The position numbers and the translations under genes are program-made. A stretch of DNA of 64,000 nt. Origin: a virus. The stretch is taken from IMG/VR virus record IMGVR_UViG_3300042558_002764, positions 42,906-106,905 of that record, one strand, 5' to 3'. Below are positions 11,360 to 47,382 of the stretch, piece after piece (positions within the stretch are counted from its first letter, which is position 1; each line of letters opens with the position of its first letter). Below the pieces are notes generated by a model. The model was not told where the DNA came from, ran no database searches, and was given only the letters and a program-made list of their open reading frames with translations.

Positions 11360-11848
11360 ATGGCAGATTTGTTAATGAGAATGCCTGTTCCTTACGAACC
11401 AAAGAAAAAGAATAGGTTTATATTTAGATTCCCTACACCATTGGGTATCCAAGAATGGTTTGTATCAACAGGTGCTAGACCGACTTATACAGCAGAAGAA
11501 ACTGAGATTCAATTCTTAAATACTTCTACTTTTGTAATTGGTAGATTTACTTGGGAAACAATCGATGTTACTTTCCGTGACCCAATCGGTCCTTCAGCTA
11601 CTCAAGCACTTATGGAGTGGGTTCGCCTTCACTCTGAATCTGTTACAGGTAGACAAGGTTACGCAGCTGGTTACAAGAAAGATGTAGAGTTGGAGTTGTT
11701 AGACCCAACAGGAGTTGTTATCGAAAAGTGGATTCTACAAGGTACAATGATTACTTCAGCTAACTTTGGTGATTTGGATTACTCTTCATCAGATATCGCT
11801 GATATCTCTGTTACTTTAAGATTTGACAGAGCAATTAGTGTATTCTGA
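11360..11848 (+). CDS. gp19: tail tube protein (T4 gp19-like)
   Basis: 162 residues, essentially the length of T4 gp19 (163). The pattern of the T4-type tube family is clear: an N-terminal PxKKNRFIFRFP strand, GIQEWFVSTGARPT, IGRFTWETIDVTFRDPIGPSATQALMEW, then ELELLDPTGVVIEKWILQGTMI and a closing strand SSDIADISVTLRFDRA. It forms the inner tube of the contractile tail through which DNA passes. It is monocistronic: A-rich leader, candidate late motif upstream, strong hairpin downstream. The codon choice looks more uniform than in neighbouring genes, which fits a highly expressed gene (impression, not computed). Confidence 0.93.
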   Translation: MADLLMRMPVPYEPKKKNRFIFRFPTPLGIQEWFVSTGARPTYTAEETEIQFLNTSTFVIGRFTWETIDVTFRDPIGPSATQALMEWVRLHSESVTGRQGYAAGYKKDVELELLDPTGVVIEKWILQGTMITSANFGDLDYSSSDIADISVTLRFDRAISVF

Positions 11849-19270: not shown

Positions 19271-22200
19271 ATGCCAAACGCGATAAACCCAAATGATTAT
19301 AATATAGATTTTTTCGCCACCGATTTTATTGGTGTTACGACAGCAGAAAGTTTTAGAGATTATCTTTTTAGTAAAAATTTACCTGACTTACCACCTGAAT
19401 TAATTAACGGTGCGGCAGGTAACTTTAGTAGTGACTATGCTGAAAAAGGTTTGGAGAAATCCATTAATTATACAAGTATATCGAATCCCGGTGATATTGA
19501 TGAGTGGTTGGTGGAGGGTAATTTTTCCACTTCACTTCACGAAGTTAGAGATATTAATTTATTATCAGGTAATAACTATGGGCCACCGACAATCGAGGCC
19601 TATAATGAACCAGGTTTAATACCTGAAAACACAGGTTTCTTACAATACCCTACTTCTTCAGGTGGAGACGACCTTAAATCAATTTTATTAAGTGACCAAT
19701 TAGCAGGTTTAGGACCTGGAGCGGCAATTAATTTTCCTTCAGACTTAAATGATATTGCGAAAGATAGAAGAAAAGAAGAAGCTATTAATAGACTTAAACT
19801 TAAAGCTCAAGATAATATTTTAGGTAAATTAAATTTAGACCCTTTTGGATTATTAGCGGGAGAAGATTTAATCCTTAGAGATTATAAAATCACAACAAGA
19901 CCGACAGTTTTAGGTAAGGTATTTGAATTTTTTAGTGATGCAGCAGATGTAACAATACCGAATAGTCCAATACCGTCAGGTGCCTTTGGTTCCTACGGAG
20001 ATTTAGATAACCCAGTTTCGTATTCCGATTTAATGGACTCTACTGGTTCTGGTACAAAAACTTTAATCTATAACGCTGTAGCTAGAAATAAATACGGACC
20101 TACATTAAGTGAACCAAAAGGTTTCTTAGCAAATACTTTTGGAGCAGGACAAGCTGCACAAAAAAATAATTATTTATCACCCGCTAGTACAACATTAGGA
20201 CAAGCGTTAGGAATTCCTTTAATAGATAAAATAAATCAGGCTGTAGGAAAAGCGGTTGACGCTTTAAATGGTGGGGTTAATAACGGGGTTGGTATAGAAG
20301 GAAATACACCACCCACAGAAACAGAAAACCCATCAATCACATTAGACAATATCCAAGAAAACGCACAGGCTGAATTTGATACATTATGGAATGGTCAAAA
20401 TATAGATACTTGGCAAACACAGGGACCCATAACTAAAATAGAGATACCTGGTATTGGATTAAGTCTAACTATTCCTGATAATGGACCCGATGGACCTATA
20501 GGTACAAAAATACCTATGAATGTTGGTGATGAATTTTACCCAGGAGAAATAAATGGTTCTAAAAATAGTGGTATATCTTATGATAGGGGAATGTATTGGG
20601 GTAGTCACACCAACAACCCATTTAAAAAAGGTATTTTAAAATACACACAAGATTTAATTAATAATTCTAGAAATACAAAAGATTATAAAGATAAAGCAAG
20701 ATTTGTCGGTGCAACAAACGACGCCTCAAATTTTGATGCAAAAAGTGGTAGACATAATAATTACTCTATGGGTAACACCGTTACTGATGCAGAAAACAAT
20801 TTTTATTGTCGTTCTTGGTCTGTAAGAAATCCATACAGAAAAGTTAGTGATTTAATTAGACACGGAGGTGGTGTTGATTCTTCTGGTAATACAAGAAGTT
20901 TAACAAGAGAAGATTTAAATTTAAGTGTATTAGATAATAATGGTTTTGTTAAAATAGCACCATATGTTGGGGATTTTAAATCTAGAAGTTTCAGCACTGA
21001 TGGTAGTGAAAATAATTTAGAATCTGGTGTATTAAAATTAGGAAATCCACAAATTCAAAAATACATGTTGTCTATTGAAAATTTAGCTTGGCAAAATAGT
21101 GAACATATATTACATGTTGCTCCTTGTGAGGTAGGACCTAACGGTGGACGTATAATGTGGTTCCCACCCTATGATATTAGTTTTACCGATAACTCTAGTG
21201 CCAATTGGGAAGCAACAAGTTTTATTGGTAGAGGTGAACCTGTGTACACTTACAATAATACCGAAAGAAGTGGTACCCTTAGTTTTACCTTGATTATTGA
21301 CCACTCAATGGCAATGACTGAAATAAAACAAAAGGGGGAAGAAGCTTTATTTAGATATTTCGCTGGATGTGAAAATCCAATAGAAGCCTTTACGTCAATT
21401 GTACCTAAAGCAGTTGAAGATGAAACAAAGGTACAACAAGTTACAGAAACAACAACAACTAAAACTGATGTAACTAAAGATAACCCTGAAGTTTGTGACC
21501 CTGAACCACCACCAGTAACTAAGTTACAATTTTATTTTAGGAATGCTAGAAGATTTGAATTAGATTCTGTTGGTACAAACTTAACAACTGAATTAGGTTC
21601 TAATGCTGATGAAAAACCACCCAATTATTTATCTCAATATACTAAACTTTGGCCTAATGGTTATTTAAGAGGTAGTTCAGGTACACCACCACCTACCATA
21701 CCTAACCCGAATAATCCTGGTCAGTTTATACCTAACCCTGCTTTTACATCTAGTACACAAACTGATATAGAAACTTTAAACCAACAAGCTTTAGACAATT
21801 TAAATACTTTAGTTGATTTCTTATTAACACCTGACGGTAAAAGATATAAAATTAAAATTATTGGTAAAACAAGTGATGCAGGACCAACTTCAGGTGGTAA
21901 AAGTAATGAAAAATTAGCTCAAAAACGTGCTAATTCAACAAAAGATTATTTATTAAACACACTTTACGCTGTAGAAACAGCTGTTGGTGTTGTTAAAGCA
22001 GAAAATTTAGGTTCACAAAAAACATACCCAACGGAAAAAGAATGGCGAGATAGTAATTTAAGATGGGAAGTTTTAGCTGTTGGTGAAACCGATTCTAGTT
22101 TATCAGTATCTTATGATGATGGTACTGGACAAAAAACGGAACAAAAAGATGATAATAGAACTTTTGGTGATTCACAAACAAGTGTACCACAAGCTATAAG

Positions 22201-23644
22201 AAATAGAACAACACTAGTTACTTTAGAATATAATAAAGAAATTGATGATACTTTAATTGGTGCGGCACAACCACCAATAACAGAGCAAACAGAACAAACA
22301 GTAGTTACTGTTAGAGATGTTGAAACCACAATACCCGCTAGTAAAGAAAAAATAGAAAGACAACGTGAAGCTGAATTAGCTGCAGCGTTAGCAGCGAAAG
22401 CTTCTAGATACATGGCTTGGGAATGTTCTTATTTTGAAAAAATGAAACAAGATGATTCATTTATTTATGAAACATTAACACAGAAATTAAAATATTTCCA
22501 CCCAGCATTTCACTCAATGACACCTGAAGGTTTTAATGCTAGATTAACATTCTTAAAACAATGTACAAGACAAGGACCTAACATTGCTGTAGGTGAACCT
22601 AGTAATTTAGCATTTGGTAAACCACCTGTTTGTGTTTTAAGAATTGGTGATTTTTATCATACCAAAATTATTATAGATTCAGTTAATTTAACTTTTGACC
22701 CATTACAATGGGATTTAAATCCTGAAGGTATTGGTGTACAACCAATGTTATGTAAAGCTGATTTAAGTTTTAAATTTATTGGTGGTTCTTCACTAGGTGG
22801 ACCTATATCACAATTACAAAATGCAGTAGGATTTAACTTCTTTGCTAATACGGCCTTATATAACCCAAGAGTAATTTCTAAATCGGTTGGTAAATATGTA
22901 ACAAAAAGGGTTGACCCACTTACAGGACAAGAAACTGAATTTACAGTACAAACACCTGCAGGAGCTAATGGTTCTATTGAATACGGTGCTTTCATGACAC
23001 CTAGACAATCAACATCAACAAGTTTATCTAATAATGACTCTAATGGGTCTACATCAAATTCTAGTACAGATACGGTACCAAATGATAAAGCAAAAGCTAC
23101 AGCTGATGCACAACAAGCGGACCAACAAGTAGCTGGTAAAGAGGCACAATCAACAGTTGCTGAACAAACTAAAGTTGACCAAGAGTTCACTAAAAAAGAA
23201 GAAGAAATAGCTGATAGCTCAACAGCAGAAAATGATGGTGTGAAAGGAAATACATTCCCTGGATTTGATAAAAAGACTGGTGTATATACAATGCAATATA
23301 CACAAATATTAACATGGAAAAAAGGTGGTGGAACAAATGCCGCACCTGCCGGTGTTAATAAGTTAAAGGTAGAAAAAGGACAAAAAGTTTATTTACAAAC
23401 TACCACAAACGGAAAAGAAATTTTTATTGGTGGTTCATTTAAAAACCCTGATAATAATAAAGTATATAGTACAATAAACAACCCTCTTAGGGTATACTGT
23501 AACGGGGATAACGGTTTCAATTTCTTCTTTGTAGAATCATCTGGAAATAGTGGTTTTTATACAAACACAGGATTCTATAATGTGGTAAAAAAAGTATTCT
23601 GTAAAGGTACTGTACCTAAAACATGGGCTGAATTAACAGCATAA
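19271..23644 (+). CDS. large baseplate protein with embedded OmpA-like domain
   Basis: 1457 residues. Residues ~580-720 and ~1030-1200 look like two halves of a baseplate structural protein (ENLAWQ... GPNGGRIMWFPPYDISF, GRGEPVYTYNNTERSG; later PPVCVLRIGDFYHTKIIIDSV). Between them, from residue 751 to about 990, is an OmpA/MotB-like domain: KLQFYFRNARRFEL, then IKIIGKTSDAG with EKLAQKRANSTKDYLLN, and a late RNRTTLVTLEY. Thr/Pro-rich linkers flank it, so it looks inserted. OmpA-like domains bind diaminopimelate-containing peptidoglycan. Residues ~1240-1320 are Ser/Asp/Gln-rich, then a small beta-rich C-terminal domain. A Shine-Dalgarno-like AAAGG precedes the start, unlike most genes here. The role is likely a baseplate hub-proximal part touching the cell wall. 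Confidence 0.7.
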   Translation: MPNAINPNDYNIDFFATDFIGVTTAESFRDYLFSKNLPDLPPELINGAAGNFSSDYAEKGLEKSINYTSISNPGDIDEWLVEGNFSTSLHEVRDINLLSGNNYGPPTIEAYNEPGLIPENTGFLQYPTSSGGDDLKSILLSDQLAGLGPGAAINFPSDLNDIAKDRRKEEAINRLKLKAQDNILGKLNLDPFGLLAGEDLILRDYKITTRPTVLGKVFEFFSDAADVTIPNSPIPSGAFGSYGDLDNPVSYSDLMDSTGSGTKTLIYNAVARNKYGPTLSEPKGFLANTFGAGQAAQKNNYLSPASTTLGQALGIPLIDKINQAVGKAVDALNGGVNNGVGIEGNTPPTETENPSITLDNIQENAQAEFDTLWNGQNIDTWQTQGPITKIEIPGIGLSLTIPDNGPDGPIGTKIPMNVGDEFYPGEINGSKNSGISYDRGMYWGSHTNNPFKKGILKYTQDLINNSRNTKDYKDKARFVGATNDASNFDAKSGRHNNYSMGNTVTDAENNFYCRSWSVRNPYRKVSDLIRHGGGVDSSGNTRSLTREDLNLSVLDNNGFVKIAPYVGDFKSRSFSTDGSENNLESGVLKLGNPQIQKYMLSIENLAWQNSEHILHVAPCEVGPNGGRIMWFPPYDISFTDNSSANWEATSFIGRGEPVYTYNNTERSGTLSFTLIIDHSMAMTEIKQKGEEALFRYFAGCENPIEAFTSIVPKAVEDETKVQQVTETTTTKTDVTKDNPEVCDPEPPPVTKLQFYFRNARRFELDSVGTNLTTELGSNADEKPPNYLSQYTKLWPNGYLRGSSGTPPPTIPNPNNPGQFIPNPAFTSSTQTDIETLNQQALDNLNTLVDFLLTPDGKRYKIKIIGKTSDAGPTSGGKSNEKLAQKRANSTKDYLLNTLYAVETAVGVVKAENLGSQKTYPTEKEWRDSNLRWEVLAVGETDSSLSVSYDDGTGQKTEQKDDNRTFGDSQTSVPQAIRNRTTLVTLEYNKEIDDTLIGAAQPPITEQTEQTVVTVRDVETTIPASKEKIERQREAELAAALAAKASRYMAWECSYFEKMKQDDSFIYETLTQKLKYFHPAFHSMTPEGFNARLTFLKQCTRQGPNIAVGEPSNLAFGKPPVCVLRIGDFYHTKIIIDSVNLTFDPLQWDLNPEGIGVQPMLCKADLSFKFIGGSSLGGPISQLQNAVGFNFFANTALYNPRVISKSVGKYVTKRVDPLTGQETEFTVQTPAGANGSIEYGAFMTPRQSTSTSLSNNDSNGSTSNSSTDTVPNDKAKATADAQQADQQVAGKEAQSTVAEQTKVDQEFTKKEEEIADSSTAENDGVKGNTFPGFDKKTGVYTMQYTQILTWKKGGGTNAAPAGVNKLKVEKGQKVYLQTTTNGKEIFIGGSFKNPDNNKVYSTINNPLRVYCNGDNGFNFFFVESSGNSGFYTNTGFYNVVKKVFCKGTVPKTWAELTA

Positions 23645-23655
23645 AATTTTAAAAT

Positions 23656-23970
23656 ATGGCAATATACTACGATAGATATAGAGATTTCAGGAAAGACGGT
23701 ATGGTAACAACCTTACCGTTTATAAAAATACCTGTAAAACCATCAGACAAAAGAATTGTTACGGATAATAAAACAAGATTTGATAAAATAAGTCAAACTT
23801 ATTATGGGAATCCCTTCCATGGTTGGTTGATATTACAAGCTAATCCAGAATTCGGTGGTTTAGAGTTTGACATTCCTGAAAATACAGTTATAATAGTACC
23901 ATTTCCTTTAAACAAATCATTAGAGGAATACCAATCTCAAGTAGAGAGATATAAAAGATTATACGGATAA
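23656..23970 (+). CDS. LysM-like baseplate protein (gp53 / tail protein X type)
   Basis: 104 residues. TRFDKISQTYYGNPFHGWLI followed by LQANPEF and IPENTVIIVPFP is the LysM-type pattern found in gp53-like wedge proteins and tail protein X: an opening helix with YYG, a WLI helix, and a closing PxxTxxxxP strand. In contractile phages such proteins bind the hub-sheath junction and fix wedges to the hub. It sits 11 nt after the 1457-residue gene and 14 nt before the 1725-residue gene, within the hub operon. The 104-residue length fits tail protein X better than T4 gp53 (~196 aa). Confidence 0.78.
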   Translation: MAIYYDRYRDFRKDGMVTTLPFIKIPVKPSDKRIVTDNKTRFDKISQTYYGNPFHGWLILQANPEFGGLEFDIPENTVIIVPFPLNKSLEEYQSQVERYKRLYG

Positions 23971-26900: not shown

Positions 26901-29162
26901 GATAAAAATACAAATATGCTTACTTTAGGTGATTATTTTGCACCTAATTTTTATCATACATATGAAAACCTAAAAGACCTACCACAAGAGGGACCAATAT
27001 TAGATTTAAGTTCATCGAGAACAATTTATGACAGTTATTCTCCAAAATATATATTTTGGTCTAATTTTATGGGTGCCTCAAATACTAATACTTCTGTTGG
27101 TTCCGCGGATTCAATAATAAACACACCACTATGGTTACTTAATTATCCTTTATGGAAAAATTCTTGGCAATACGCTGAGTCTGGTGGTGATAACGGTACC
27201 GTGGCTCTTGATGAAGTAGTTTCAATAGTGGCTGGTAAAACTTCTGGTGAATTTGCTACTTACCTTGGAGAAGATATTGGTACATACCCATCTTACCATA
27301 ATAAAGCTGATTCAAACCAAAGAAGAAATTGGTCTACTTGGTGGGGATTAAATCAGTGGGGTGTAGATAATACTAATAATATATACAAACCATTGGCTTA
27401 TATGGCGGTAATGTCATTTGGTTTTGATAATTTAAAATCTGAATTTAGAACAGGACATTTTCCACCTTGGGATGGCAATAGTGATACAGATTTATCATCA
27501 TTTTCTAATTTCACAACTTCAGCTATTATGGCATATCCACCTAAAGCTTATATATTATTAATTGGAGCCATTTTATGGAGAATGAAAGAAACTAATTTAT
27601 TATTATGGGACGAAATAAAACCTACAAAAGACCCTTTTCCTTATGACGCTAGTATAAATTCAGGGTGGAATAGATTAAATAAATCATACCTTTCTGACAA
27701 TTCAAATATAGGTATAGATGACATAAACGACCCTGTATGGTTTTTCCATACATCTACGTCTAGACCTTGGTTTAAAGGTGGTTCTGTATACGCAATAAAA
27801 CCAGAACAAAATGCTTTATCTTTTGGTGGTACAAATTCTAGTTATCAAAGAAGATGGTTAGGTGCCCAAGGGGGTGTAGATAGATGGACCAATGGTGGAG
27901 CATCCATAAGTAAAAATTTTGGAACTCAAAAACCAGTAATTATCGGACCTAATAACAGTATTAATTTTCCTCCTGGTTTATCTGCTTCTGATTTTAACTT
28001 TACAAATTCATTATATCGAGCCGGATGGACTAAATCAAGTTCTATTTTTGGTAAAAATGATGATAAAGTCCCTAGTAATGGTATATTTAGAAGTGCTGTA
28101 GGTAATATTACCAAAGGATGGTTTGACCAATGTAGACCCGACCAAATGCCTTTTATTTTAAGTGATAGTGGTAGAGGTATTGATTTTACAAGTCCTAAAA
28201 CATTGGTTATTACTAATCTAAGTACTGAAACAAATAAGAATATCAATTACAGTGATAAGACACCTAATTTATTAAATAATAAATACCCTATTTTAAAAGA
28301 AGAATGTAAAGAATTAATGTTTATACCAAAAAGTTTAAAAATACAATTTATTGATGCTTTTGAATCTTGGGCAACAGGTGAAAATGCTAGATGGTTATTA
28401 GGCTTAGACCCATTAAATTGGAATGATAATGGTAGTTTAGATAATTGGTCAACAACAAGTGGTGGTTTTGATAATTCATATGTTTTAAATGGGTATAAAG
28501 GATTTTTAACTCAGACTGTTAGAAAAGATAGACAGTATTTAACATACACCAAAGAAGATAAGAAAAATTACTATACACAACGTTTTACTTTTCTTGATGA
28601 GGGTGAATTATCTGGCACAAAACCAAAACCAAAAAAACAAAAGAAAAGTAATAGTAATACTGATTACGAACCAGCATCACCTACTTATGATGTTTCATGT
28701 TTTGTGGCTGGTTCTAAAATTAAGTTAAGTAGTGGTAAAAATATTAATATTGAAGATTTAGTAGTTGGTGATATTGTATTAAGTTATAATGTAAATACAA
28801 ATATTTTTGAAGAAAGTAGTATTGAAAACGTTACAATAAATTATAAAGATAATCTTGTAATTTACAATTTTGATAACGGAATTAAAATAACTTGTACCGA
28901 TACCCACCCTATTTGGGTTGTTGGTAAAGGTTGGTCTTCTTATAGACAAACTGATGTAAATGATTCTGAACATATAGGACCCACAAAACAAATTAGTAGT
29001 GGTGATGAATGTTTTTATTATTCTAACAATAAATTTAATAAAGTTAAAATTTCTAAAATAATTGAAAAACAAAATAAAATGGTTAGGGTTTGGAACGTTA
29101 AAAACGTTACTGGTAACCATAACTTCATCATAAATAATGTTTTAGTACATAACGTTACATAA
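23985..29162 (+). CDS. very large baseplate structural protein with C-terminal Hint domain
   Basis: 1725 residues. The N-terminal ~220 residues (NIEFKSSFMPQIVIDFVDVR, GPCSPYAVFFHLPYPVFELT, VKGYYGRPVTYTLALTKF, FVGYTYAFLADI) look like a baseplate hub-type beta domain. The long middle (about 230-1540) is Asn/Trp/Tyr-rich and not recognised. A Lys-rich linker near 1550 leads into residues 1572-1725, a Hint domain: Cys1572 in CFVAGSKI, the TDTHPIW block, and a C-terminal NHNFIINNVLVHNVT. The residue after the terminal Asn is Val, not Cys/Ser/Thr, so normal protein splicing is unlikely but self-cleavage is possible. The stop overlaps the next start (TAATG). The unspliced length is unusual for a baseplate protein. 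Confidence 0.72.
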   Translation: MALNQGPQPKVQDMGNGIRYVDPNPTDEIVNHEDLVMYVKLVARSKGRSILTFDDANDQVTNIVEQRNVKSETNFTYPTGKDSIDTSWTNIGGGNLNFGEDLGSFGITNINIEFKSSFMPQIVIDFVDVRGAALFEQGPCSPYAVFFHLPYPVFELTVKGYYGRPVTYTLALTKFNTKFNSDTGNFESKAEFVGYTYAFLADIPMGYVMAAGFMEKPHNGKDILAEKWKLLMDKKVLVNNVETPLIDQTSFTDATKPINVYDLIKSSKKLESRTSELKNSTQVTNLGKINKTKNELKGLRESVLEFRQKFLEKIANSPNGGYRISPNTTNQKNTLYLKLPNVSASDDNPVLVELKKVVETYFGTGENSQLGGTIGAKYNSVNSYYTNNAIDGPPILSWDTIKTNASGFFGTPINIVDGLRDYYIDIYESLLKPIDVASVELNKKYIIEKDNTKNFLNKEVVTTLGFLPTISNVFAIILTNVEVFLELLLRTSRDAEKYHQENNVNIGLDKTGLQQILDLKGTQNNGAELSDEENDKQKNKVYPWPTYYEKKQGSDSEVGDKETYPGENPEFVSWPEVIFVESFIKALTKLKGELAVLELQLENLPGYDNFAPITPYETHAFGVVESPNRWLKIQNGSSDQASWADSIYKVMGENAFIIGDYTMINSLSVWKSQLGFKNGWGVETLTNGNGASNGYSNTGNKYSIKPQRLAENPKVLQNIAANNQLGRYGGEGFTYGSQGKDTDSFKRKIVPATTKRMKDWGYVDALNLMTTLKLDGGVNTTLEWLQNDITTAKKDFIITEIKRVLTNKLKTQKFDEWKVSATAAIGGTPALVDKQSQIWNSYFQYVTAKNVLTLTGPIYLNDRVDSAKDIKISANPHNNDGSGAVLVKDTDLTAREIDFSSDSLIEEIKNGYKKYYASTEETDSGIAENLLEVGSLAYRLLKFRPKTPRDKPTTAYDTKKVIETEADINLSRDKNTNMLTLGDYFAPNFYHTYENLKDLPQEGPILDLSSSRTIYDSYSPKYIFWSNFMGASNTNTSVGSADSIINTPLWLLNYPLWKNSWQYAESGGDNGTVALDEVVSIVAGKTSGEFATYLGEDIGTYPSYHNKADSNQRRNWSTWWGLNQWGVDNTNNIYKPLAYMAVMSFGFDNLKSEFRTGHFPPWDGNSDTDLSSFSNFTTSAIMAYPPKAYILLIGAILWRMKETNLLLWDEIKPTKDPFPYDASINSGWNRLNKSYLSDNSNIGIDDINDPVWFFHTSTSRPWFKGGSVYAIKPEQNALSFGGTNSSYQRRWLGAQGGVDRWTNGGASISKNFGTQKPVIIGPNNSINFPPGLSASDFNFTNSLYRAGWTKSSSIFGKNDDKVPSNGIFRSAVGNITKGWFDQCRPDQMPFILSDSGRGIDFTSPKTLVITNLSTETNKNINYSDKTPNLLNNKYPILKEECKELMFIPKSLKIQFIDAFESWATGENARWLLGLDPLNWNDNGSLDNWSTTSGGFDNSYVLNGYKGFLTQTVRKDRQYLTYTKEDKKNYYTQRFTFLDEGELSGTKPKPKKQKKSNSNTDYEPASPTYDVSCFVAGSKIKLSSGKNINIEDLVVGDIVLSYNVNTNIFEESSIENVTINYKDNLVIYNFDNGIKITCTDTHPIWVVGKGWSSYRQTDVNDSEHIGPTKQISSGDECFYYSNNKFNKVKISKIIEKQNKMVRVWNVKNVTGNHNFIINNVLVHNVT
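28698..29159 (+). other. Hint (intein/hedgehog-like) autoprocessing domain
   Basis: This codes for the last 154 residues of the 1725-residue protein. Visible motifs: N-terminal block with Cys1 followed by FVAGSKI and IEDLVVGDIVLSYN; block B TDTH with PIW; C-terminal block F/G ending in His-Asn. Only Val-Thr follow the terminal Asn, so there is no real C-extein. No homing-endonuclease domain is present. This arrangement matches bacterial intein-like domains better than true inteins. Confidence 0.88.
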
Positions 29163-31090
29163 TGAGTGATAACACAAGATTAGTAGGATTAAAAAAAGAT
29201 AAAAACAAAGAACTGTATGAAGAATTATTTGTAACTGATTCTAAATACCGTTTAATTTCTTCATCACCTAAAGTTTTTTCTGCCATACATCCTGATGATT
29301 TTAATGAAGAATTTTATATATCTGAGGATGAATTAAGTTCATACGTCGACGGATTTATTCAAGCGGTGTCAGACAATTCCAAAAAAATTATTGAGTCAAT
29401 TACACAAAATACGGATAATAACGATAATATAGCTGATTCCGCTTTAAATGACACAGACCTAAAACTTTCTTTATATCGTTCATTTAAATCACTTTACGAT
29501 AAATGGATTTCTTGTTCTGTAATTGGTTCAGATAGTACTTCGGGTAATACTTCAGGTTATTTCTATAATAACTATGGTAGTAGTAGTCCATCTGAAACAA
29601 GGATGTTATATGAACATTTTAGTTTTGTTAATAGAGGTAATGGTGATGTGGGTAAAAAAGCAGTTATAGATTTTTCATACCTTTCTAATTTAGCTAGTAC
29701 CAAAAACGGACAAGGGCCAACACAATCCCTATACGAATCTATAACTAATTTATTAACAAAAAACAATTTTGAATTTTTTGCAATGCCAAACGTAATTGGG
29801 TATTCTACAGGGGGCAATGAAGTTCTTGAAAATATTTTTAGAGCTTTCGATAGTCCTATAGATAGAATACCCGCTAAACCTGGATTTGTGTGTATGTTTA
29901 TTGGGGGTAATTCTAGGACATTAGATATACCAAAAACTTCATGTAGTAATAATGGTATTAATTTTGATTATGTAGACGATACCTTTGATATAGATAAACC
30001 CACTACATACCCAGAAGATTTTATTAAAAATGGTGGTATAACAGCTTTTAAAGTTAGATACGGACAACAAACCCAAAATCATTTTAAATCTTTAGAACTA
30101 GACCAATCCGAATTTAAAGAAACTCAAGAATCACTTTTGGTAATTGATGCCTTAACAAATCCTAGTAGTGGCTCAGACCCAACACAAATTGGTAAGGGTA
30201 ATAATATTTATGATATGTATTTGACAAGAAACTATTCTTGTACTGTTAACACATTTGGTAACATGCAAATACAACCAATGATGGTCTTTAAATTAGAGAA
30301 CGTCCCAATGTATAAAGGAACTTATTTAATTACAAACGTCAGTCATTCCATAAAACCACACAATGTAGAAACAACATTTAAAGGTGTGAGACAACCAATA
30401 GTCACCGTACCTATTGTAACAGAAGCTTTGAGTTTGATTGACCTAGCTCTAGCTGAAACACTACAAGGAGATGCTGCTTTAGGTAACACTGGTGGGGGAG
30501 GTGGAGGAACCACAACTACAACTACAATATTACCAGCCAACCAAATATTCATAGACGATACTGTTTATGGAGATAGTTCAAATGAACAATGCCCTAAAAT
30601 AGACGGTATAACAGATGGTGGTGTTGGTGACGCTTATACCGGTGGTAAATTATTTAAAATTAGGTTATGTAAGGTAAAAGGTGCACTTATAAACGTCAAA
30701 ATGGCGGAAAATTTAAATAATATGGTTAATGCCGCACAAGCGGATGGTGTACCATTAACTTGTGGTAGTAACTTTAGAACAATGGAAGACCAAATAAATA
30801 CGGCTAAAGCTAATGGGTGTTATAAAACAGGTGTTTATGTAAAAGGTAATTGTGACCCTGATACTGCCACACCAGGGAGGTCAAGACACCAAAGTGGATT
30901 TGCAATAGATTTTGGTTGTAATGGGTCGACAATTTGTTATAAACACGATTCAGCTTGGTGTGCCGCAAATGGTGCTTCTAAAAAACCAAACGAATATGTT
31001 TGTTTTAATTGGTTGGTTAATAACGCCTCAAAATACGGATTTATTAATTACAACGGTGAGGCTTGGCACTGGTCAATAGATGGTACATAA
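29162..31090 (+). CDS. baseplate hub protein paralog 1 with M15 D,D-carboxypeptidase domain
   Basis: 642 residues. The first ~440 residues are shared with the next two genes and end in a hub-type segment (GNMQIQPMMVFKLENVPMYK, GTYLITNVSHSI) seen in gp27/gpD-like hub proteins. A Gly6-Thr6 linker follows. The C-terminal ~150 residues are a VanY-type M15 peptidase: SRHQSGFAIDFG gives zinc ligands His576 and Asp583, and EAWHWS gives Glu633 and His636. The enzyme would cut D-Ala-D-Ala or related peptidoglycan bonds at the tail tip during entry. The start overlaps the upstream stop (TAATG). The 5' end is nearly identical at DNA level to those of both downstream paralogs, which shows recent duplication or gene conversion. 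Confidence 0.82.
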   Translation: MSDNTRLVGLKKDKNKELYEELFVTDSKYRLISSSPKVFSAIHPDDFNEEFYISEDELSSYVDGFIQAVSDNSKKIIESITQNTDNNDNIADSALNDTDLKLSLYRSFKSLYDKWISCSVIGSDSTSGNTSGYFYNNYGSSSPSETRMLYEHFSFVNRGNGDVGKKAVIDFSYLSNLASTKNGQGPTQSLYESITNLLTKNNFEFFAMPNVIGYSTGGNEVLENIFRAFDSPIDRIPAKPGFVCMFIGGNSRTLDIPKTSCSNNGINFDYVDDTFDIDKPTTYPEDFIKNGGITAFKVRYGQQTQNHFKSLELDQSEFKETQESLLVIDALTNPSSGSDPTQIGKGNNIYDMYLTRNYSCTVNTFGNMQIQPMMVFKLENVPMYKGTYLITNVSHSIKPHNVETTFKGVRQPIVTVPIVTEALSLIDLALAETLQGDAALGNTGGGGGGTTTTTTILPANQIFIDDTVYGDSSNEQCPKIDGITDGGVGDAYTGGKLFKIRLCKVKGALINVKMAENLNNMVNAAQADGVPLTCGSNFRTMEDQINTAKANGCYKTGVYVKGNCDPDTATPGRSRHQSGFAIDFGCNGSTICYKHDSAWCAANGASKKPNEYVCFNWLVNNASKYGFINYNGEAWHWSIDGT

Positions 31091-31096
31091 AATATT

Positions 31097-31144
31097 ATGG
31101 GTGATAAAAAAAATTAATAGGATTAAAAAAATAAGATAAAAATA
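31097..31144 (+). repeat. decayed copy of the hub-paralog 5' end
   Basis: These ~48 bases align with the first ~46 bases of the hub paralogs, sharing a 14-nt exact block (TAGGATTAAAAAAA) and the GTGATAA and GATAAAAA blocks, but with small indels that break the frame after six codons. They directly precede the intact start of paralog 2, as expected for a scar of tandem duplication. Confidence 0.6.
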
Positions 31145-33130
31145 ATGAGTGATAACACAAGATTAGTAGGATTAAAAAAAGATAAAAATGATGAACTGTA
31201 CAAAGAATTATTTGTAACTGATTCTAAATACCGTTTAATTTCTTCATCACCTAAAGTTTTTAGTGCAATTCACCCTGAAGATTTTGGAGAAGATTTTTAT
31301 ATTTCAGAGGATGAACTAGGTTCTTATATTGATGGATTTATTCAAGCGGTGACCGATAACTCTCAAAAAATCATTGATTCCATCACACAAAATACAGATA
31401 ATAACGATAATATAGCTGATTCTGCTTTAAATGACACAGACCTAAAACTTTCTTTATATCGCTCATTTAAATCTCTTTACGATAAATGGATTTCTAGTTC
31501 AGAATATAACCAACAACAAACATCTAATTATTTTTATAATGCATATTCAGCAGAAAAAACTGACGAAAGAATGTTATACGAACATTTTAATTTTGTTAAT
31601 AGATGTGGTACTGACATAGGTAAAAAGGCTGTTATAGATTTTGCTTACCTTTCTAATTTAGCTAGTACCAAAAATGGGCAAGGACCTACACAATCACTAT
31701 ACGAATCTATAACTGGAGTTTTAAGTAAAAATAATTTTAATTTCTTACCATTACCTGGGTATATTAAATATTCAGACGCAAATACAAGTGAATTAGAAGA
31801 TATGTTTAGAGCTTTTGATGGTCCACTAACTAAAATGAGAGCAAACCCTAAATTTGTGTGTATGTTTATTGGTGGTAGTTCTAGAAGTTTAGATATACCT
31901 AGGTCTTATTGTGGTACTAACGGAACTAATTTTGAATATAAAGATGATTCTTTTGACATATTTGACCCAACCACTTACCCCCAAGATTTTAATAACGATA
32001 AAACAAGTGGTATTGTGGCTTTTAAAGTTAGATACGGACAAGAAACCCAAAACCACTTTATTAAAGTGGAGTTAGACCAAGCTGAGTTTAGGGAAACACA
32101 AGATTCACTTTTGGTAATTGACGCTTTGGTAAACCCAAGTAGTGGTTCGGACCCAACACAAATTGGTAAGGGTAATAATTTATATGATGTTAACTTAACT
32201 AGAGGTTACACTTGTAAGGTTGAGACTTTGGGTAACATGCAAATACAACCCACAATGTTTTTTAAATTAGAAAATATCCCAATGTTTAGAGGTACTTATC
32301 TAATTACAGATGTATCACACACAATCGTACCACATAACGCTAAAACAACTTTTACAGCAACAAGACAACCAATAATTACGGTACCAATTGTGACCGAAGC
32401 TTTGAGTATATTAGATTTATCTTTAGTTGAAACAGTACAAGGAGACACGAATTTAAATAACACTGGAGGTGGAGGAACCACAACAACCACAACAACTGAT
32501 AATAATTATGACGAATCTACAGTAACAACATTCAGTGGAATTGATGATTGTGTAACAACTTCTTTAAATAGTGTTAAAAATGATGGGTCCTTCCCAGTAA
32601 TCATAAAAGGATGTTATACGGCTAAAGATTTAGGTGGAGACGCCTTACACTCTTTTAATACTAGAAAAAGTGATAATTTTGGTGGTTATATGTTTACTGA
32701 ATCAGCAGTACCAGCTAATTTTAGTAATAGAGTTAAAGTTGGTACACAGGGTGGAGTTTATGCTGGAAAAGGTGTTAACACTGTAATAAAAGAAATAAAT
32801 AGTAAGGGTGTTAAAGTAAAAGTTTCAAAAATAGAAATTAATATAGATTGGACTAATTATTTTGTTAGTTGGGCAGTTACAATAGAAAAAAGTACTGACG
32901 AAAAATCTTACATTGGAGTAGCTACTAGAGGTTCAATAGGTAGTATATCTTCTGGAAACTATTCAGACAGAGCAGATTCACAAATACCGACATTAAAAAG
33001 CCAAAACCCAGAATACGCAAATTGGGTTTCACCAAAAATTATTTATAATAAAAATATAATGGCAACTGGTTATTTAGAAGACCCTAAAAAACAATTAAGA
33101 CAATATTTTTTAGCTTATACAAAAGCTTAA
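31145..33130 (+). CDS. baseplate hub protein paralog 2 with unknown C-terminal domain
   Basis: 661 residues. Residues 1-~440 are collinear with paralogs 1 and 3 (same start MSDNTRLVGLKKDKN, same YLSNLASTKNGQGPTQSLYE block, same GNMQIQPTMFFKLENIPMFR hub motif). A Gly4-Thr6 linker leads into ~220 residues that I do not recognise: VIIKGCYTAKDLGGDALHSF, GGYMFTESAVPANFSNRVKV, GSIGSISSGNYSD and a Lys/Tyr-rich end. No catalytic motif of lysozymes, M15/M23 peptidases, amidases or SGNH hydrolases is obvious. By position it should be an envelope-acting or binding tip domain. The start is chosen at 31145 because the near-identical upstream ATG at 31097 belongs to a frame-broken remnant. Confidence 0.75.
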   Translation: MSDNTRLVGLKKDKNDELYKELFVTDSKYRLISSSPKVFSAIHPEDFGEDFYISEDELGSYIDGFIQAVTDNSQKIIDSITQNTDNNDNIADSALNDTDLKLSLYRSFKSLYDKWISSSEYNQQQTSNYFYNAYSAEKTDERMLYEHFNFVNRCGTDIGKKAVIDFAYLSNLASTKNGQGPTQSLYESITGVLSKNNFNFLPLPGYIKYSDANTSELEDMFRAFDGPLTKMRANPKFVCMFIGGSSRSLDIPRSYCGTNGTNFEYKDDSFDIFDPTTYPQDFNNDKTSGIVAFKVRYGQETQNHFIKVELDQAEFRETQDSLLVIDALVNPSSGSDPTQIGKGNNLYDVNLTRGYTCKVETLGNMQIQPTMFFKLENIPMFRGTYLITDVSHTIVPHNAKTTFTATRQPIITVPIVTEALSILDLSLVETVQGDTNLNNTGGGGTTTTTTTDNNYDESTVTTFSGIDDCVTTSLNSVKNDGSFPVIIKGCYTAKDLGGDALHSFNTRKSDNFGGYMFTESAVPANFSNRVKVGTQGGVYAGKGVNTVIKEINSKGVKVKVSKIEINIDWTNYFVSWAVTIEKSTDEKSYIGVATRGSIGSISSGNYSDRADSQIPTLKSQNPEYANWVSPKIIYNKNIMATGYLEDPKKQLRQYFLAYTKA

Positions 33131-33169
33131 TTATACTATCTGTTTTAGTTAAAAAAATAATAAAGTAAT

Positions 33170-35707
33170 ATGAGTGATAACACAAGATTAGTAGGATTAA
33201 AAAAAGATAAAAACAAAGAACTGTATGAAGAATTATTTGTAACTGATTCTAAATATAGGCTCATATCTTCTTCACCTAAAGTTTTTTCTGCTATTCACCC
33301 CGAAGATTTTGGTGAAGATTTTTATATATCTGAGGATGAATTAAGTTCTTATGTTGATGGGTTTATTCAAGCGGTGACAGACAATTCCAAAAAAATTATT
33401 GAATCAATTACACAAAATACAAATAATAACTCTATTGAGGATAACATGTCAAGTGACCCAGATGTTAAACTTTCATTATATCGTTCATTTAAATCATTTT
33501 ATGATAAATGGGTATCTAATTCTTATGATAGTGTAAATAAATCTTCTGGTTATTTCTTTAATAATTACGGTGAAGAAGATGATAGAATGTTATATGAACA
33601 TTTTAAATTTATTAATAGAGCAAATCAAGACGTGGGTAAAAAAGCAGTTATAGACTTTTCATACCTTTCTAATTTAGCTAGTACCAAAAACGGACAAGGG
33701 CCAACACAATCACTATATGAGTCATTGACAAGTTTATTAAGTAAAAACAATTTTGATTTTTGGCCATTACCAGCAAACATTGATTTATCAACAGTATCAT
33801 TAACAAATGAACAAGTAAAAGATATTTTTAGACCATTAACATTTATAGATAAGGTACATCCAGGACCATCATTTGTTTGTGTTCATATTGGGGGTAGTTC
33901 TAGGTCTCTAGCTGATTTAAAAGACAATAGTAATACTTGTAGTGTTAATGGTGGTAATTTTGAATATGTTGATGACTCTTTTGATATTACAAATACAGTA
34001 GATTTACCGGTTGAATACACTAAAGAAGGTGAGGGTTTAGTTGTTTTTAAAGTTAGATATGGGCAAGAAGCACAAAATCATTTTAACTCAATAGAGTTAG
34101 ACCAAACAGAATTTAAAGAAACACAAGAATCTTTACAAATAATAGATGCCTTAACAAATCCTAATAGTGGCTCAAACCCATCACAAATTGGTAAAGGTAA
34201 TAACATGTATGATGTTTATTTAACAAGGGCTTATAATTGTACGGTTTCAGGTTTGGGTAATATGTCAATACAACCTTTAATGTATTTTAAATTAGAAAAC
34301 GTACCAATGTTTAGAGGTACTTATCTAATTAATGCCGTTAGCCATACAATAACAAATAATAAAATTACTACTGAATTTACTGGTATGAGACAACCCAAAG
34401 TAACCGTACCTGTTGTAACTGAAGCTTTGAGTTTAATTGATTTAGCTTTAGTTGAAGTAGTACAAACTGATACAACTACCACTAATACTAATGGTAATGG
34501 AAGTACTACTGATAGTGGTGATTATAGTGGTGGTGATATTTCAGTATTTAATAGTGTTGATACAAACGCTAAAGGTTGTGAGATTATAGGAAGACTTAAG
34601 GGTGATTTGGGTATAACTGATGCACAGGCCGCTGGTATTATTGGTAATTTAATTGCTGAATCAGGTTTAATACCTGATAGAATACAAGATAGAAAAGGGA
34701 GAAAACCAAGGGGACTTATAACAGAATCTGGTGGATGGAATGGAACTACATTTTCTAAAGGTGGGGAAGATGAAGAAGGTTATGGTTGGGCACAATGGAC
34801 TTTCTATACATTAAAAAATGATTTTATAGAATATGCAAGTACTAAAGGTTTTGATTTAAAAACAAAACCAGCAACAGATGAAATTAATTATGGTTATTTA
34901 ATATATTGGTTAACTGTATCAGAAGGTGGTAAAAAATTTGAAAAATTTAAAAGTGAAGATACAGTTTATAAAGCAGCAAAATATGTTGCTCAAAAATGGG
35001 AAAGATGTGAATTTTGTCAAACAGAGGCTGAATGGAAAAAAAGAAGTGCTTTTGCACAAAACGTGTTTGATAGTTGTGGTAAAACACCAACTGGTGGGGG
35101 TGGTACAGGAAAACCACCAGAACCAAAAAATTGTAGTAGTTCTGTTAAATTTGGTCTTAATGGTGGTGGTACTTTAGCTAACGCTAAAAACGCTATTGTT
35201 GGTTCTTCAAGTGTTGGGACCCTTAATGGTATGAGTAAATCTAGTACTTACGGTAACTTAACTAGTAATAATATATACGTATACTATAACTGTGGTGGTA
35301 AAACACTCTCTTGGTTAAAACAACAAATTAATGGAGACGGTAATGTTTACACAAGTGTAGAATCATTCTTCCAAGTAGGTATTGGTACTAATGACGGGTA
35401 TCCAACAAAGGATAGTACCAAGAAAGATATTAAAGCATATACTGATTTGGTTAGAAAAAAATTCCCTAACGCTACATTATATATTTTACCTGGTACTCGT
35501 GGTTGGGGAAGTGTTTCTAATACTACACTTAGTCAAATGAAATCTTATTATAAACAATATACAGATTTAGGTTGGACTTTATTGTGGCCTTTAAATAGTT
35601 CTAGTAATGAAATAGACCCTTATTTTGACACACAAACAAAAGCTCACAACAGTAATGATGAATGGTTTAAAAAACAAATGAAAAGAATCAAAGATAATAA
35701 GAGTTAA
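33170..35707 (+). CDS. baseplate hub protein paralog 3 with tail-lysozyme and SGNH hydrolase-like domains
   Basis: 845 residues. Residues 1-~445 match the other two paralogs. After a Thr/Asn/Gly linker, residues ~460-620 fit the phage tail lysozyme type: AAGIIGNLIAESGLIPDR with candidate catalytic Glu497, and GYGWAQWT. A Gly/Pro linker follows, then residues ~670-845 resemble an SGNH/GDSL hydrolase: VGSSSVGTL with candidate nucleophile Ser680 (the usual Asp is Ser), GIGTNDGY with Asn741 of the GxND block, and a late DTQTKAH with His826, though the Asp-His spacing is not canonical. Together they would cut glycan strands and possibly remove acyl groups. The stop at 35707 closes the hub block, and no clear terminator is visible after it. 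Confidence 0.8.
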   Translation: MSDNTRLVGLKKDKNKELYEELFVTDSKYRLISSSPKVFSAIHPEDFGEDFYISEDELSSYVDGFIQAVTDNSKKIIESITQNTNNNSIEDNMSSDPDVKLSLYRSFKSFYDKWVSNSYDSVNKSSGYFFNNYGEEDDRMLYEHFKFINRANQDVGKKAVIDFSYLSNLASTKNGQGPTQSLYESLTSLLSKNNFDFWPLPANIDLSTVSLTNEQVKDIFRPLTFIDKVHPGPSFVCVHIGGSSRSLADLKDNSNTCSVNGGNFEYVDDSFDITNTVDLPVEYTKEGEGLVVFKVRYGQEAQNHFNSIELDQTEFKETQESLQIIDALTNPNSGSNPSQIGKGNNMYDVYLTRAYNCTVSGLGNMSIQPLMYFKLENVPMFRGTYLINAVSHTITNNKITTEFTGMRQPKVTVPVVTEALSLIDLALVEVVQTDTTTTNTNGNGSTTDSGDYSGGDISVFNSVDTNAKGCEIIGRLKGDLGITDAQAAGIIGNLIAESGLIPDRIQDRKGRKPRGLITESGGWNGTTFSKGGEDEEGYGWAQWTFYTLKNDFIEYASTKGFDLKTKPATDEINYGYLIYWLTVSEGGKKFEKFKSEDTVYKAAKYVAQKWERCEFCQTEAEWKKRSAFAQNVFDSCGKTPTGGGGTGKPPEPKNCSSSVKFGLNGGGTLANAKNAIVGSSSVGTLNGMSKSSTYGNLTSNNIYVYYNCGGKTLSWLKQQINGDGNVYTSVESFFQVGIGTNDGYPTKDSTKKDIKAYTDLVRKKFPNATLYILPGTRGWGSVSNTTLSQMKSYYKQYTDLGWTLLWPLNSSSNEIDPYFDTQTKAHNSNDEWFKKQMKRIKDNKS

Positions 35708-45093: not shown

Positions 45094-45498
45094 ATGGCAG
45101 AAAGGTTTATAAACATAGCATTCCCATTTAGGGATGACGATACGAAAAACTATTTTCTTAAAATGAATAAGAATAGTTATGATGCTATTAAATCTGATTT
45201 ATTACATCTTTTATTAACAACACCAGGGGATAGATTATATCTACCCGACTTTGGTACAAATCTAAAACAATTTCTATTTGAACCAAACGACAATCAAGTT
45301 AGAGATGACATTAGGAACGAAGTTCAAAACGCAGTTAGTAAATACATACCAAATTTAACAATAACAACATTAACTGTAGATAGACCCGATAGTAGTGAAT
45401 ACAATGGTAAGGGAGACCATTCCGCGGTAGTAAGGATAGATTATATTGTAACAGAAGGGGCATTAAATAAAGTAGATTTTGTAACTATCACAGTTTAA
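45094..45498 (+). CDS. gp25: baseplate wedge protein (T4 gp25-like)
   Basis: 134 residues (T4 gp25 is 132). Contains INIAFPFRDD, SDLLHLLLTTPGDRLYLPDFGTNL and the signature FLFEPND (EPR-type core) followed by a conserved helix and SAVVRIDYIVTEG strand. gp25/gpW-like lysozyme-fold proteins lie at the wedge-sheath junction and start sheath assembly. It heads the peripheral baseplate block and lies 12 nt before the gp6-like gene, the usual 25-6 pairing. Confidence 0.93.
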   Translation: MAERFINIAFPFRDDDTKNYFLKMNKNSYDAIKSDLLHLLLTTPGDRLYLPDFGTNLKQFLFEPNDNQVRDDIRNEVQNAVSKYIPNLTITTLTVDRPDSSEYNGKGDHSAVVRIDYIVTEGALNKVDFVTITV

Positions 45499-45510: not shown

Positions 45511-47382
45511 ATGGCAACACAAAGTAAAAAAATAAATTATTTTGCGAGGAACTTCGCTGATGTAAGAACCGAACTAGTTAATTTCATTAAATTATATTAC
45601 CCAGAAGTATTTTCTGATTTTAATGACGCATCAGTAGGGATGATGTTATTAGAGTTAAATGCGGCTGTTGGAGATATGTTATCCAATCACACAGACCGAA
45701 TGTTTAACGAAACTTTTTTGGATTATGCACAAGAAAGAAAAAATGTTTTAGCTATAGCAAGAACATTGGGGTTAAAAGTACCAGGTCTAAGACCTAGTAT
45801 TACTTTAGTAGATTACTCCGTTGTAGTACCTGTATACGGTGATACATGGGATATTAGATACGCACCAACGATTAGATACGGTTCACAAGTTTTAGGTGGT
45901 GGACAAGTATTTGAAAATTTAGAGGATATAGACTTTTCTTCACCTTATACTGTAGGTGGTACACCTAATAGATTAATTCTACCTAACATAGATGATAATG
46001 GTACATTACAAAATTATACTATAGTTAAAAGAGAGTTAGTAATTAATGGTTTAACGAAAATCTTTAAAAAGAGTATCTCACAAAGTGAGTCAGTACCTTT
46101 CTTTGAAATATTTTTACCTGATACAAACGTACTTTCAATTGAAAGTATAATAAATCTTGAAGGTACAAATTATAGTAATAACCCAACAATAGACCAGTTC
46201 ATTGACCCAGATTTAAGATGGTATGAAATGGATTCGTTAGCTGAAGATAAAGTTTTTATTGAAGACACTAGTAGAACTACTGATAATGAAGCGGTTAAAC
46301 CTGGTAAGTATGTTCACACAACAAGAAAATTTGTTAGAGAATTTACTGATAATAATTACTGTAAATTAACTTTTGGTAGTGGTGTTAGTACAGACGATGA
46401 ACAATTACAAAACATATCTACAACTGGTATAAAAATAGGTGACTTTATAAATACTACAGCTTTAGGTGAAATAATTAAACCAAACACAACCTTATTTATT
46501 AGATATAGAGTTGGTGGTGGACCTAGTAGTAATATAGGACCTAATGCTATAAACGCAATTGGTAATGTTACTTTAAATGTAAATGGACCCAACACACCAA
46601 CAAATCAATCGGTAATAAGGTCGTTAAGAGTTAATAACCCAATTCCAGCAATAGGTGGAGCTGGGGTACCTTCAGTTGACCAAATAAGACAATATACAAA
46701 GTATAATTTTGCCTCACAAAATAGAGCGGTTACTATTAAAGATTATGAAGCTATTTTAGCTAAAATACCTGGTAGATACGGCTCACCTTATAGACATAAA
46801 ATAGCTGAGGAACAAAATAAAGTAATTATTTATACACTAGGTTTAGATGCTTCAGGTAAGTTAACAAACCAATCTACTAATACTCTAAAAGAAAATATAG
46901 CAACTTGGTTATCAGATTATAGAATGATAAATGATTACGTATTAGTTGGTGATGGTAAAGTAGTTAACCTAGGATTTGAAATAGACTTATTTATAGATAA
47001 ACAGATTAATCAATCAGAATTAATTAATAACGTTATTACTAGTGTTAAAAATTATTTTGATGTTAAGAAGTGGGAAATGGGTGATAATATTTATATCGCT
47101 CAATTGGTTGAAAACATTAATAATGTTGGTGGTGTACTAAATGTTATTGATATAAGAGCTTACAATTTAATAAGTTCTCCTTATTCATTAAACCAAACAT
47201 CACAAAATTTCATACCAGAATCTTTAGTAAATGGTGTTATACCATTTAATAATGGTAAACTAATTGATTTAGGTTCTGATTACGCTTTATTTGGTGATAT
47301 AGACTCTATGTTTGAAATTAAGTTCCCTGAAAGGGATATAAAAGTAAGGATTAAGAGAAGTTCGACTGTAACTGAAGGGTAA
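45511..47382 (+). CDS. gp6: baseplate wedge protein (T4 gp6 / gpJ-like)
   Basis: 623 residues (T4 gp6 is 660). The N-terminus is diagnostic: FADVRTELVNFIKLYYPEVF, FNDASVGMMLLELNAAVGDM, LSNHTDRMFNETFLDYAQER, then KNVLAIARTLGLKVPG. Further blocks: RYRVGGGPSSNIGPNAI, ASQNRAVTIKDYEAILAKIP and a C-terminal INNVGGVLNVIDI. It forms the iris-like dimer ring of the baseplate wedge that opens on sheath contraction. It follows the gp25-like gene and is followed 2 nt later by a further structural gene. Confidence 0.92.
   Translation: MATQSKKINYFARNFADVRTELVNFIKLYYPEVFSDFNDASVGMMLLELNAAVGDMLSNHTDRMFNETFLDYAQERKNVLAIARTLGLKVPGLRPSITLVDYSVVVPVYGDTWDIRYAPTIRYGSQVLGGGQVFENLEDIDFSSPYTVGGTPNRLILPNIDDNGTLQNYTIVKRELVINGLTKIFKKSISQSESVPFFEIFLPDTNVLSIESIINLEGTNYSNNPTIDQFIDPDLRWYEMDSLAEDKVFIEDTSRTTDNEAVKPGKYVHTTRKFVREFTDNNYCKLTFGSGVSTDDEQLQNISTTGIKIGDFINTTALGEIIKPNTTLFIRYRVGGGPSSNIGPNAINAIGNVTLNVNGPNTPTNQSVIRSLRVNNPIPAIGGAGVPSVDQIRQYTKYNFASQNRAVTIKDYEAILAKIPGRYGSPYRHKIAEEQNKVIIYTLGLDASGKLTNQSTNTLKENIATWLSDYRMINDYVLVGDGKVVNLGFEIDLFIDKQINQSELINNVITSVKNYFDVKKWEMGDNIYIAQLVENINNVGGVLNVIDIRAYNLISSPYSLNQTSQNFIPESLVNGVIPFNNGKLIDLGSDYALFGDIDSMFEIKFPERDIKVRIKRSSTVTEG

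Follow-up and report, generated by a model that had tools for sequence, protein, structure and literature searches.

Three adjacent hub genes and their upstream partner

The window analysed here is a stretch of 64,000 nucleotides (positions 42,906 to 106,905 of IMG/VR virus record IMGVR_UViG_3300042558_002764) and forms part of a 170,905-base virus record from an uncultured large phage. It contains three adjacent genes, which we call hub1, hub2 and hub3 for the putative role of their products in the tail hub, and which align throughout their first ~435 residues before diverging completely (Table 1). Identity across this shared body is 74% between hub1 and hub2, 70% between hub1 and hub3 and 67% between hub2 and hub3, with full-length identities to hub1 of 62% for hub2 and 55% for hub3. 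Open reading frames (ORFs) at 29162-35707, alignments and domain searches confirmed an initial annotation of the locus, which had described three tandem paralogs with a common N-terminal body and different ends. No fourth hub copy was found in the whole 170,905-base record.

Three other IMG/VR records match the region at 100% identity over 21,983 bases, and the same tandem set, which the initial annotation had proposed looking for in related phages, recurs in a second phage that is ~66% identical in hub1 (locus L016, where the contig ends within the third hub, which L021 completes). Given this identity between records and the recurrence of the triplet in a diverged phage, an assembly artefact was judged unlikely. 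The decayed hub start between hub1 and hub2 aligned to the start of hub2 with a local alignment score of 54, which 0 of 1000 base shuffles reached (maximum 35); the best score elsewhere in the window, hub starts excluded, was 38. Upstream of the triplet, the stop codon of gene P0004 overlaps the start codon of hub1 by one base (TAATG).

Table 1. Features of the hub locus and of the tail genes in the window (aa, amino acids).
Feature	Coordinates	Strand	Description
hub1 (hub paralogue 1)	29162..31090	+	642 aa; body aa 1-440, then VanY/M15 D,D-carboxypeptidase-like domain
VanY/M15 domain of hub1	30689..31072	+	PF02557, E 2e-13, aa 510-637
hub2 (hub paralogue 2)	31145..33130	+	661 aa; body aa 1-435, then orphan domain of ~225 aa
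Orphan domain of hub2	32450..33127	+	relative within a separate 508-aa gene of L122
hub3 (hub paralogue 3)	33170..35707	+	845 aa; body aa 1-440, then Phage_lysozyme2 and possible SGNH-like domain
Phage tail lysozyme domain of hub3	34589..35071	+	PF18013 (Phage_lysozyme2), E 2.4e-20, aa 474-634
Possible SGNH/GDSL-like domain of hub3	35090..35704	+	Lipase_GDSL_2, E 0.047, below cut-off
P0004	23985..29162	+	1725 aa; homologous to N-terminal part of single-chain hubs
Hint/intein-like domain, C-terminus of P0004	28698..29159	+	Cys1572, TDTHP, end VHN-VT
Decayed copy of hub gene 5' end	31097..31143	+	between hub1 and hub2; relic of tandem recombination
Baseplate wedge subunit	23656..23970	+	phrog_7145 'baseplate wedge subunit', E 4.2e-4; beside hub genes
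Sheath	1745-4537		contractile-tail block
gp19-type tube	11360-11848		contractile-tail block
gp25	45094-45498		contractile-tail block
Baseplate wedge	45511-47382		contractile-tail block

P0004 and the hub paralogues as two halves of one chain

Viral-contig scans with hub alignments returned 238 and 168 relatives, from which the best 80 of each were taken. Outside the window's clade we examined 127 loci, or 88 after removal of near-duplicates, with 61 non-redundant ORFs uncut at the 5' end; flanks were fetched up to 10 kb and were often cut by contig ends. Among the near-duplicates dropped was L038, a near-copy of L037; the L038 chain had no P0004 match but begins near the start of its contig. 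A P0004-like part and a hub domain lay in one chain in 59/61 of the non-redundant complete ORFs, and the two exceptions, L080 (4830-9460) and L177 (4092-10864), are single chains split at other positions. Because the two parts are fused almost throughout, P0004 and the hub paralogues are, on this comparative evidence, the two halves of one ancestral chain. The initial annotation had missed P0004 as the other half.

P0004 would contribute the tube-like domain 1 to the ring. That domain is seemingly missing from the hub chain, judging from where structural matches start (see below), although residues 1-140 of the hub model are of low confidence. With hhalign, the P0004 N-terminus gave no significant match to gp27 domain 1 (E 0.24) or to the hub domain, and a profile search of the PDB with P0004 found no hub match. 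A programmed frameshift or read-through joining P0004 to hub1 was considered and rejected: the two frames differ in the window, whereas in L016 hub1 is in frame behind the stop, so the arrangement is not conserved.

The Hint-like domain sits at the ancestral boundary between P0004 and hub. It matched AXH at 36.9 bits (cut-off 33), while PF14890 (E 1.4e-6; 28.7 bits, cut-off 35.8), PF01079 (E 2.9e-5; 24.2 bits, cut-off 29.7) and TIGR01445 (E 0.00099) stayed below their cut-offs. It is not a complete intein, since the Cys, TxxH and terminal HN are there but only two residues follow them; the L016 homologue ends YN with nothing after. By eye the domain is apparently degenerate in L024, and none was seen in L022. 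It is a possible autocleavage or ligation element.

Copy number and C-termini in the window's clade

More than one hub ORF was found in the fetched flanks of 0/127 loci outside the clade. Among the loci examined, the hub is multiplied only in the window's clade, with three copies in two phages (the window and L016/L021) and two copies in two others (L022 and L024); whole-record searches agree, with the proviso that records may be fragments. L017, a fifth clade member, shows only a hub3, whose 5' end is lost at the contig edge. In this clade, then, a pair of genes encodes what relatives make as one chain, and there are 2 or 3 copies of the hub half together with its C-terminal slot. We infer that fission came before duplication.

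The slots are filled differently from phage to phage. Position 1 ends in VanY in the window, a homologue of it in L016 and an amidase in L024, and has no C-terminal domain in L022. At position 2 the window has the orphan domain, and L016 has a divergent lysozyme2. Position 3 carries lysozyme2 in the window, L021 and L024, and lacks a C-terminal domain in L017; in L022, where hub1 is bare, hub3 beside it keeps a long unrecognised C-terminal part. A gene between the two hubs of L022 (7365-8306) is TIGR02594-like (E 1.8e-9, below that model's cut-off). A homologue of this gene also stands beside the hub in L133 (10403-11395), where the match is likewise sub-threshold.

C-terminal domains of the three hubs

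The C-terminus of hub1 scored 50.7 bits against the VanY profile (cut-off 25), which places it among the VanY/M15 peptidases with the corresponding predicted activity. Its motifs SRHQSGFAID and EAWHW follow the patterns SxHxxGxAxD and ExxHW, which we take to be the zinc ligands of this family. The Phage_lysozyme2 domain of hub3 scored 73.6 bits (cut-off 28.2) and is likewise a predicted enzyme; it has GWAQW and, within AESG, Glu497, presumably the catalytic Glu. The hub2 orphan domain reached the cut-off of no Pfam or NCBIfam model, and the PDB sequence search matched nothing in that part. AlphaFold2 gave this domain a predicted local distance difference test score (pLDDT) of 57-72 in blocks 541-580 and lower values in the rest, and the rows returned by VIA structure comparison were weak (Z 4-5, mixed alpha/beta folds) and not interpretable.

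Over the last ~200 residues of hub3, the orthologue gave a Lipase_GDSL_2 match of E 0.061, as weak as that of hub3 itself and also under the curated cut-off. Judged by the blocks GTND, GDS and DxxH, which we assume to mark SGNH enzymes, this part has GTND, shows GSSS replacing GDS and has no clean DxxH. Homologues of it occur on the single-chain hubs L132 and L123, the latter again below cut-off (Lipase_GDSL_2, E 0.0021). Profile searches of the three C-termini, a check proposed with the initial annotation, thus put VanY and Phage_lysozyme2 above cut-off and gave nothing above it for hub2; they bear out the M15 peptidase, the unrecognised domain and the tail lysozyme named there, and with them the predicted presence of several cell-wall activities, and leave the SGNH-like label sub-threshold.

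Single-chain relatives combine the same activities

A C-terminal part of at least 100 residues was present in 51/88 non-redundant loci outside the clade. L035 (2804 aa) and L122 (2623 aa) have a single hub domain followed by lysozyme2 and then VanY, and L145 and L150 (the second of them 5'-truncated) hold amidase, lysozyme2 and M15 on one chain. In L132 a domain of the type seen in L022 hub3 is followed by the SGNH-like domain. Representatives elsewhere have GH25, M23, M15 or SLT in the C-terminal slot, and others have nothing recognised there or no C-terminal part. A pattern scan for the hub2 orphan domain turned up just one other phage with it. A relative of the domain (49% over 180 columns) lies within a 508-residue gene directly 3' of the hub in L122. 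In L122, lysozyme2, VanY and the orphan domain thus meet at a seemingly single-hub tip, with one hub match in its 94,981-base record; in the window the same three domains are spread over separate hub paralogues. The tandem enzymes on single chains show, as far as domain content can, that these activities belong together at one tip.

L182 (G006:C1:4000-23900) and L145 come from one 380-kb record, G006, that has two hub/replication blocks ~231 kb apart, possibly a chimeric record or else a large internal duplication. As the second hub lies in this distant block of a possibly chimeric record, it was not counted as a tandem case. It has almost no C-terminal extension and is followed by a stand-alone gene that is amidase-like by eye.

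The shared body resembles part of a tail hub

The hub body was modelled with AlphaFold2 from a 65-sequence alignment, with pLDDT 71-87 at residues 351-410; a model from the three sequences alone reached pLDDT 28 and was discarded. Through VIA, rows 1-31 of 50 were hubs, spikes, tail tips or baseplates (Z 5.1-7.4), the best being 6u5h (Z 7.4, root-mean-square deviation 4.7, 144 aligned). T4 gp27 (1k28) gave Z 6.7 (root-mean-square deviation 6.0, 168 aligned) and Mu gp44 gave Z 6.1. Model residues ~110-427 match gp27 134-376, and most hub matches begin at model residue 110-143, corresponding to residue 120-134 of gp27, gp44 and the R2 pyocin hub; from these starting points, the paralogues appear equivalent to the second half of a gp27-type hub. 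Foldseek against BFVD found two proteins named baseplate hub subunit (E 3.3e-4 and 9.3e-4), its two best rows being an uncharacterised phage protein and a protein named lysozyme, and hhalign of the hub with nine gp27 sequences placed gp27 309-354 on hub 357-402 (E 0.022). These comparisons, each of moderate strength and in agreement with one another, support the identity of hub paralogues given in the initial annotation, and we hold with moderate confidence that the modelled body resembles domains 2-4 of central tail hubs (T4 gp27, Mu gp44, VgrG).

Sequence searches with the window bodies gave nothing above cut-off in Pfam and nothing convincing in PHROG, and a profile search of the PDB gave no match; among the 65 alignment members, only 2 and 1 weakly match tail families. 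No hub-body relative was found among INPHARED phages by tblastn with four queries, one of which returned a chance match at E 2; a further search of the phages matched over the lysozyme part only. The hub-like family may therefore be without an isolate. Among 84,980 bacterial and archaeal genomes, a pattern scan gave one relative, L104, within a Bacteroidota metagenome-assembled genome.

The contractile-tail block (Table 1) marks the window's phage, by gene content, as one with a contractile tail, and the hub triplet is most likely its tail tip. The wedge subunit beside the hub genes we take to be gp53-like. A 1457-aa protein at 19271-23644 has an OmpA-type domain (aa 834-898, E 8.9e-7) and is possibly peptidoglycan-binding; it has a homologue upstream of the hub in L016 and L182.

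Matched N-termini and old body classes

Trees were built from ten hubs of four phages, excluding the partial hubs B3 (L017) and E1 (L025) and the outgroup F (L035). For residues 1-150 the hubs grouped by phage and the paralogue topology was rejected (approximately unbiased test, p 1e-60), whereas residues 151-432 separated hub3-type from hub1/2-type sequences, with hub2 grouping with hub1 and the phage topology rejected (p 1.3e-4). Paralogues of one phage share 88-97% identity over residues 1-75, as against 45-69% between phages for orthologues complete there. The class split is sharpest at residues 226-300, where hub1 or hub2 shares 39-49% identity with hub3 in the three-hub phages. The two body classes (1/2 and 3) thus appear to be old paralogues, kept across phages and older than the split of the four. 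In L024, residues 111-150 show 99% DNA identity between paralogues, which suggests recent gene conversion.

A proposed mixed tail tip and its alternatives

The ancestral hub would have been one long chain made up of a P0004-like N-terminal part, a hub domain and an optional C-terminal cell-wall enzyme. In the window's phage, three P0004 subunits would form one half of a pseudo-hexameric ring at the tube end, and three hub chains drawn from the paralogues would form the other half. The near-identical N-terminal segment (residues 1-150, most strongly 1-75) would dock on the same partner or partners, and the diverged bodies would determine which paralogue neighbours which. In a mixed trimer, flexible Gly/Thr linkers would then bring three parts to bear at once on tail contraction: the D,D-carboxypeptidase, the lysozyme, possibly accompanied by an esterase, and the orphan domain.

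The initial annotation had left a choice between such a mixed trimer and alternative tips. Our comparison favours a mixed trimer over alternative homotrimers and over random mixing, because the N-terminal segment co-varies within a phage while the bodies stay distinct lineages, because the same activities stand in tandem on one chain in relatives, and because hubs bare of a C-terminus persist (L017 hub3 and L022 hub1), as would suit a structural subunit of a mixed trimer more than a tip that stands alone. Overall, we put the chances that P0004 pairs with a mixed trimer of the hub paralogues slightly above even, on sequence comparison. A fixed 1:1:1 ratio is plausible, with a statistical mixture as the alternative. 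The stricter version, an obligate heterotrimer in which a ring of three P0004 carries one each of hub1, hub2 and hub3, derived from a multi-enzyme homotrimer by fission and division of labour, we put forward tentatively and with some doubt. If it were true, the three-fold tip would be chemically asymmetric, with carboxypeptidase, lysozyme and a third activity delivered from fixed positions.

Several observations weigh against a mixed trimer or against the hub reading beneath it. L022 and L024 have two hubs, not three, so that 1:1:1 is not general, and a homotrimer of each paralogue would yield the same gene order. In the trees, the hub3-type clade for residues 151-432 has a bootstrap of 75, and for residues 301-432 the sequences C1 and C3 pair with a bootstrap of 55. 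Strictly class-specific positions number only 4, against 0 in each of 7 label swaps, which is a thin test. Synonymous-codon identity in the window is 72-80% in residues 1-75 and 55-85% elsewhere, and so not clearly higher; the matched N-termini there may reflect selection on a shared partner, which would suffice, rather than recent conversion. The hub model is weak overall (pLDDT 52), all its Z scores are below 8 and singly not decisive, and Foldseek against the PDB gave no match at E <= 0.001.

Each paralogue might instead form its own homotrimer, so that one burst would release differently tipped particles, as bet-hedging or for host range, in the manner of multiple VgrG assemblies. In Serratia, VgrG1 was undetected in co-purification with VgrG2, and in the accessible text of that paper the authors conclude that the two do not form heterotrimers (PMC4924876). 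Diverged bodies with a common N-terminus would also be expected if all paralogues bound the same tube and partner. Single-chain relatives, however, hold the same activities on one chain and would thus deploy them together, and hub bodies bare of a C-terminal domain are retained; we consider alternative tips rather unlikely. Were the bodies interchangeable, any three could co-assemble at random and the extra genes would merely widen the enzyme repertoire. The identity of residues 1-75 within each phage and the visible traces of past recombination (the L024 tract and the relic at 31097-31143) would fit this, but free exchange would erode body classes that seemingly predate the split of the four phages and are sharpest in residues 226-300, and random mixing seems to us improbable. 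We give very little credence to a central ring built from one paralogue only, with the others now peripheral baseplate proteins or soluble lysins: separate hub-linked enzyme genes do exist (the TIGR02594-like gene of L022, its L133 homologue and the amidase-like gene, so called by eye, of L182), yet every paralogue, unlike these stand-alone genes, keeps a complete hub body and the common N-terminal segment.

Under the mixed trimer that we favour, the tip that pierces the host may be assembled from different subunits rather than from copies of one. Trimeric hubs are generally regarded as symmetric components of tailed phages, type VI secretion systems and contractile injection systems. With single-chain, two-hub and three-hub members of one family side by side, the sequences make it possible to trace the transition from a homomeric hub to one that may be heteromeric. 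The family also indicates which cell-wall activities cooperate at the tip, as relatives line them up along a single chain and the window's phage distributes them over subunits.

Comparison with known systems

T4 gp27 is the product of one gene and has four domains, with the lysozyme in a separate protein, gp5; VgrG proteins combine the complete hub with a gp5-like spike and equip a secretion system instead of a virion. The window's hubs share with T4 gp27, P2 gpD and Mu gp44 the apparent hub-body fold, the contractile-tail neighbourhood and the inferred role at the tip. In contrast to the gp27 family, the first half is here a protein of its own, and the second exists as three paralogues bearing the enzymes themselves.

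Bacillus phage 0305phi8-36 has an enlarged gp27 homologue, gp147, with several peptidoglycan-degrading domains on one chain (PMC2147016), and so resembles the single-chain relatives found here. It differs in being one gene, and the accessible text of that paper describes no split hub or tandem hub paralogues. In type VI secretion systems, too, a single machine has several hub paralogues that differ in their C-terminal parts (PMC3166118; PMC4924876), and for VgrG-1, VgrG-2 and VgrG-3 of V. cholerae a homo- or heterotrimer of VgrG-2 has been proposed (PMC3166118). In the open-access literature, including the accessible parts of PMC2147016, PMC4924876, PMC3166118, PMC11945409 and PMC3322345, we found no phage described as having tandem hub paralogues, whether or not combined with a split hub. 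A phage structural heterotrimer is reported for T1, where one gp48 and two gp49 form a trimer of subunits similar in fold, one with an extra C-terminal part; it decorates the capsid and is not a tail tip (PMC11945409). As far as the accessible texts of these papers go, hub paralogues with different C-termini were thus already known from type VI secretion systems, and multi-enzyme single-chain hubs from phages. What is new is a hub half that has been split from P0004 and multiplied in tandem, among the loci examined only in the window's clade.

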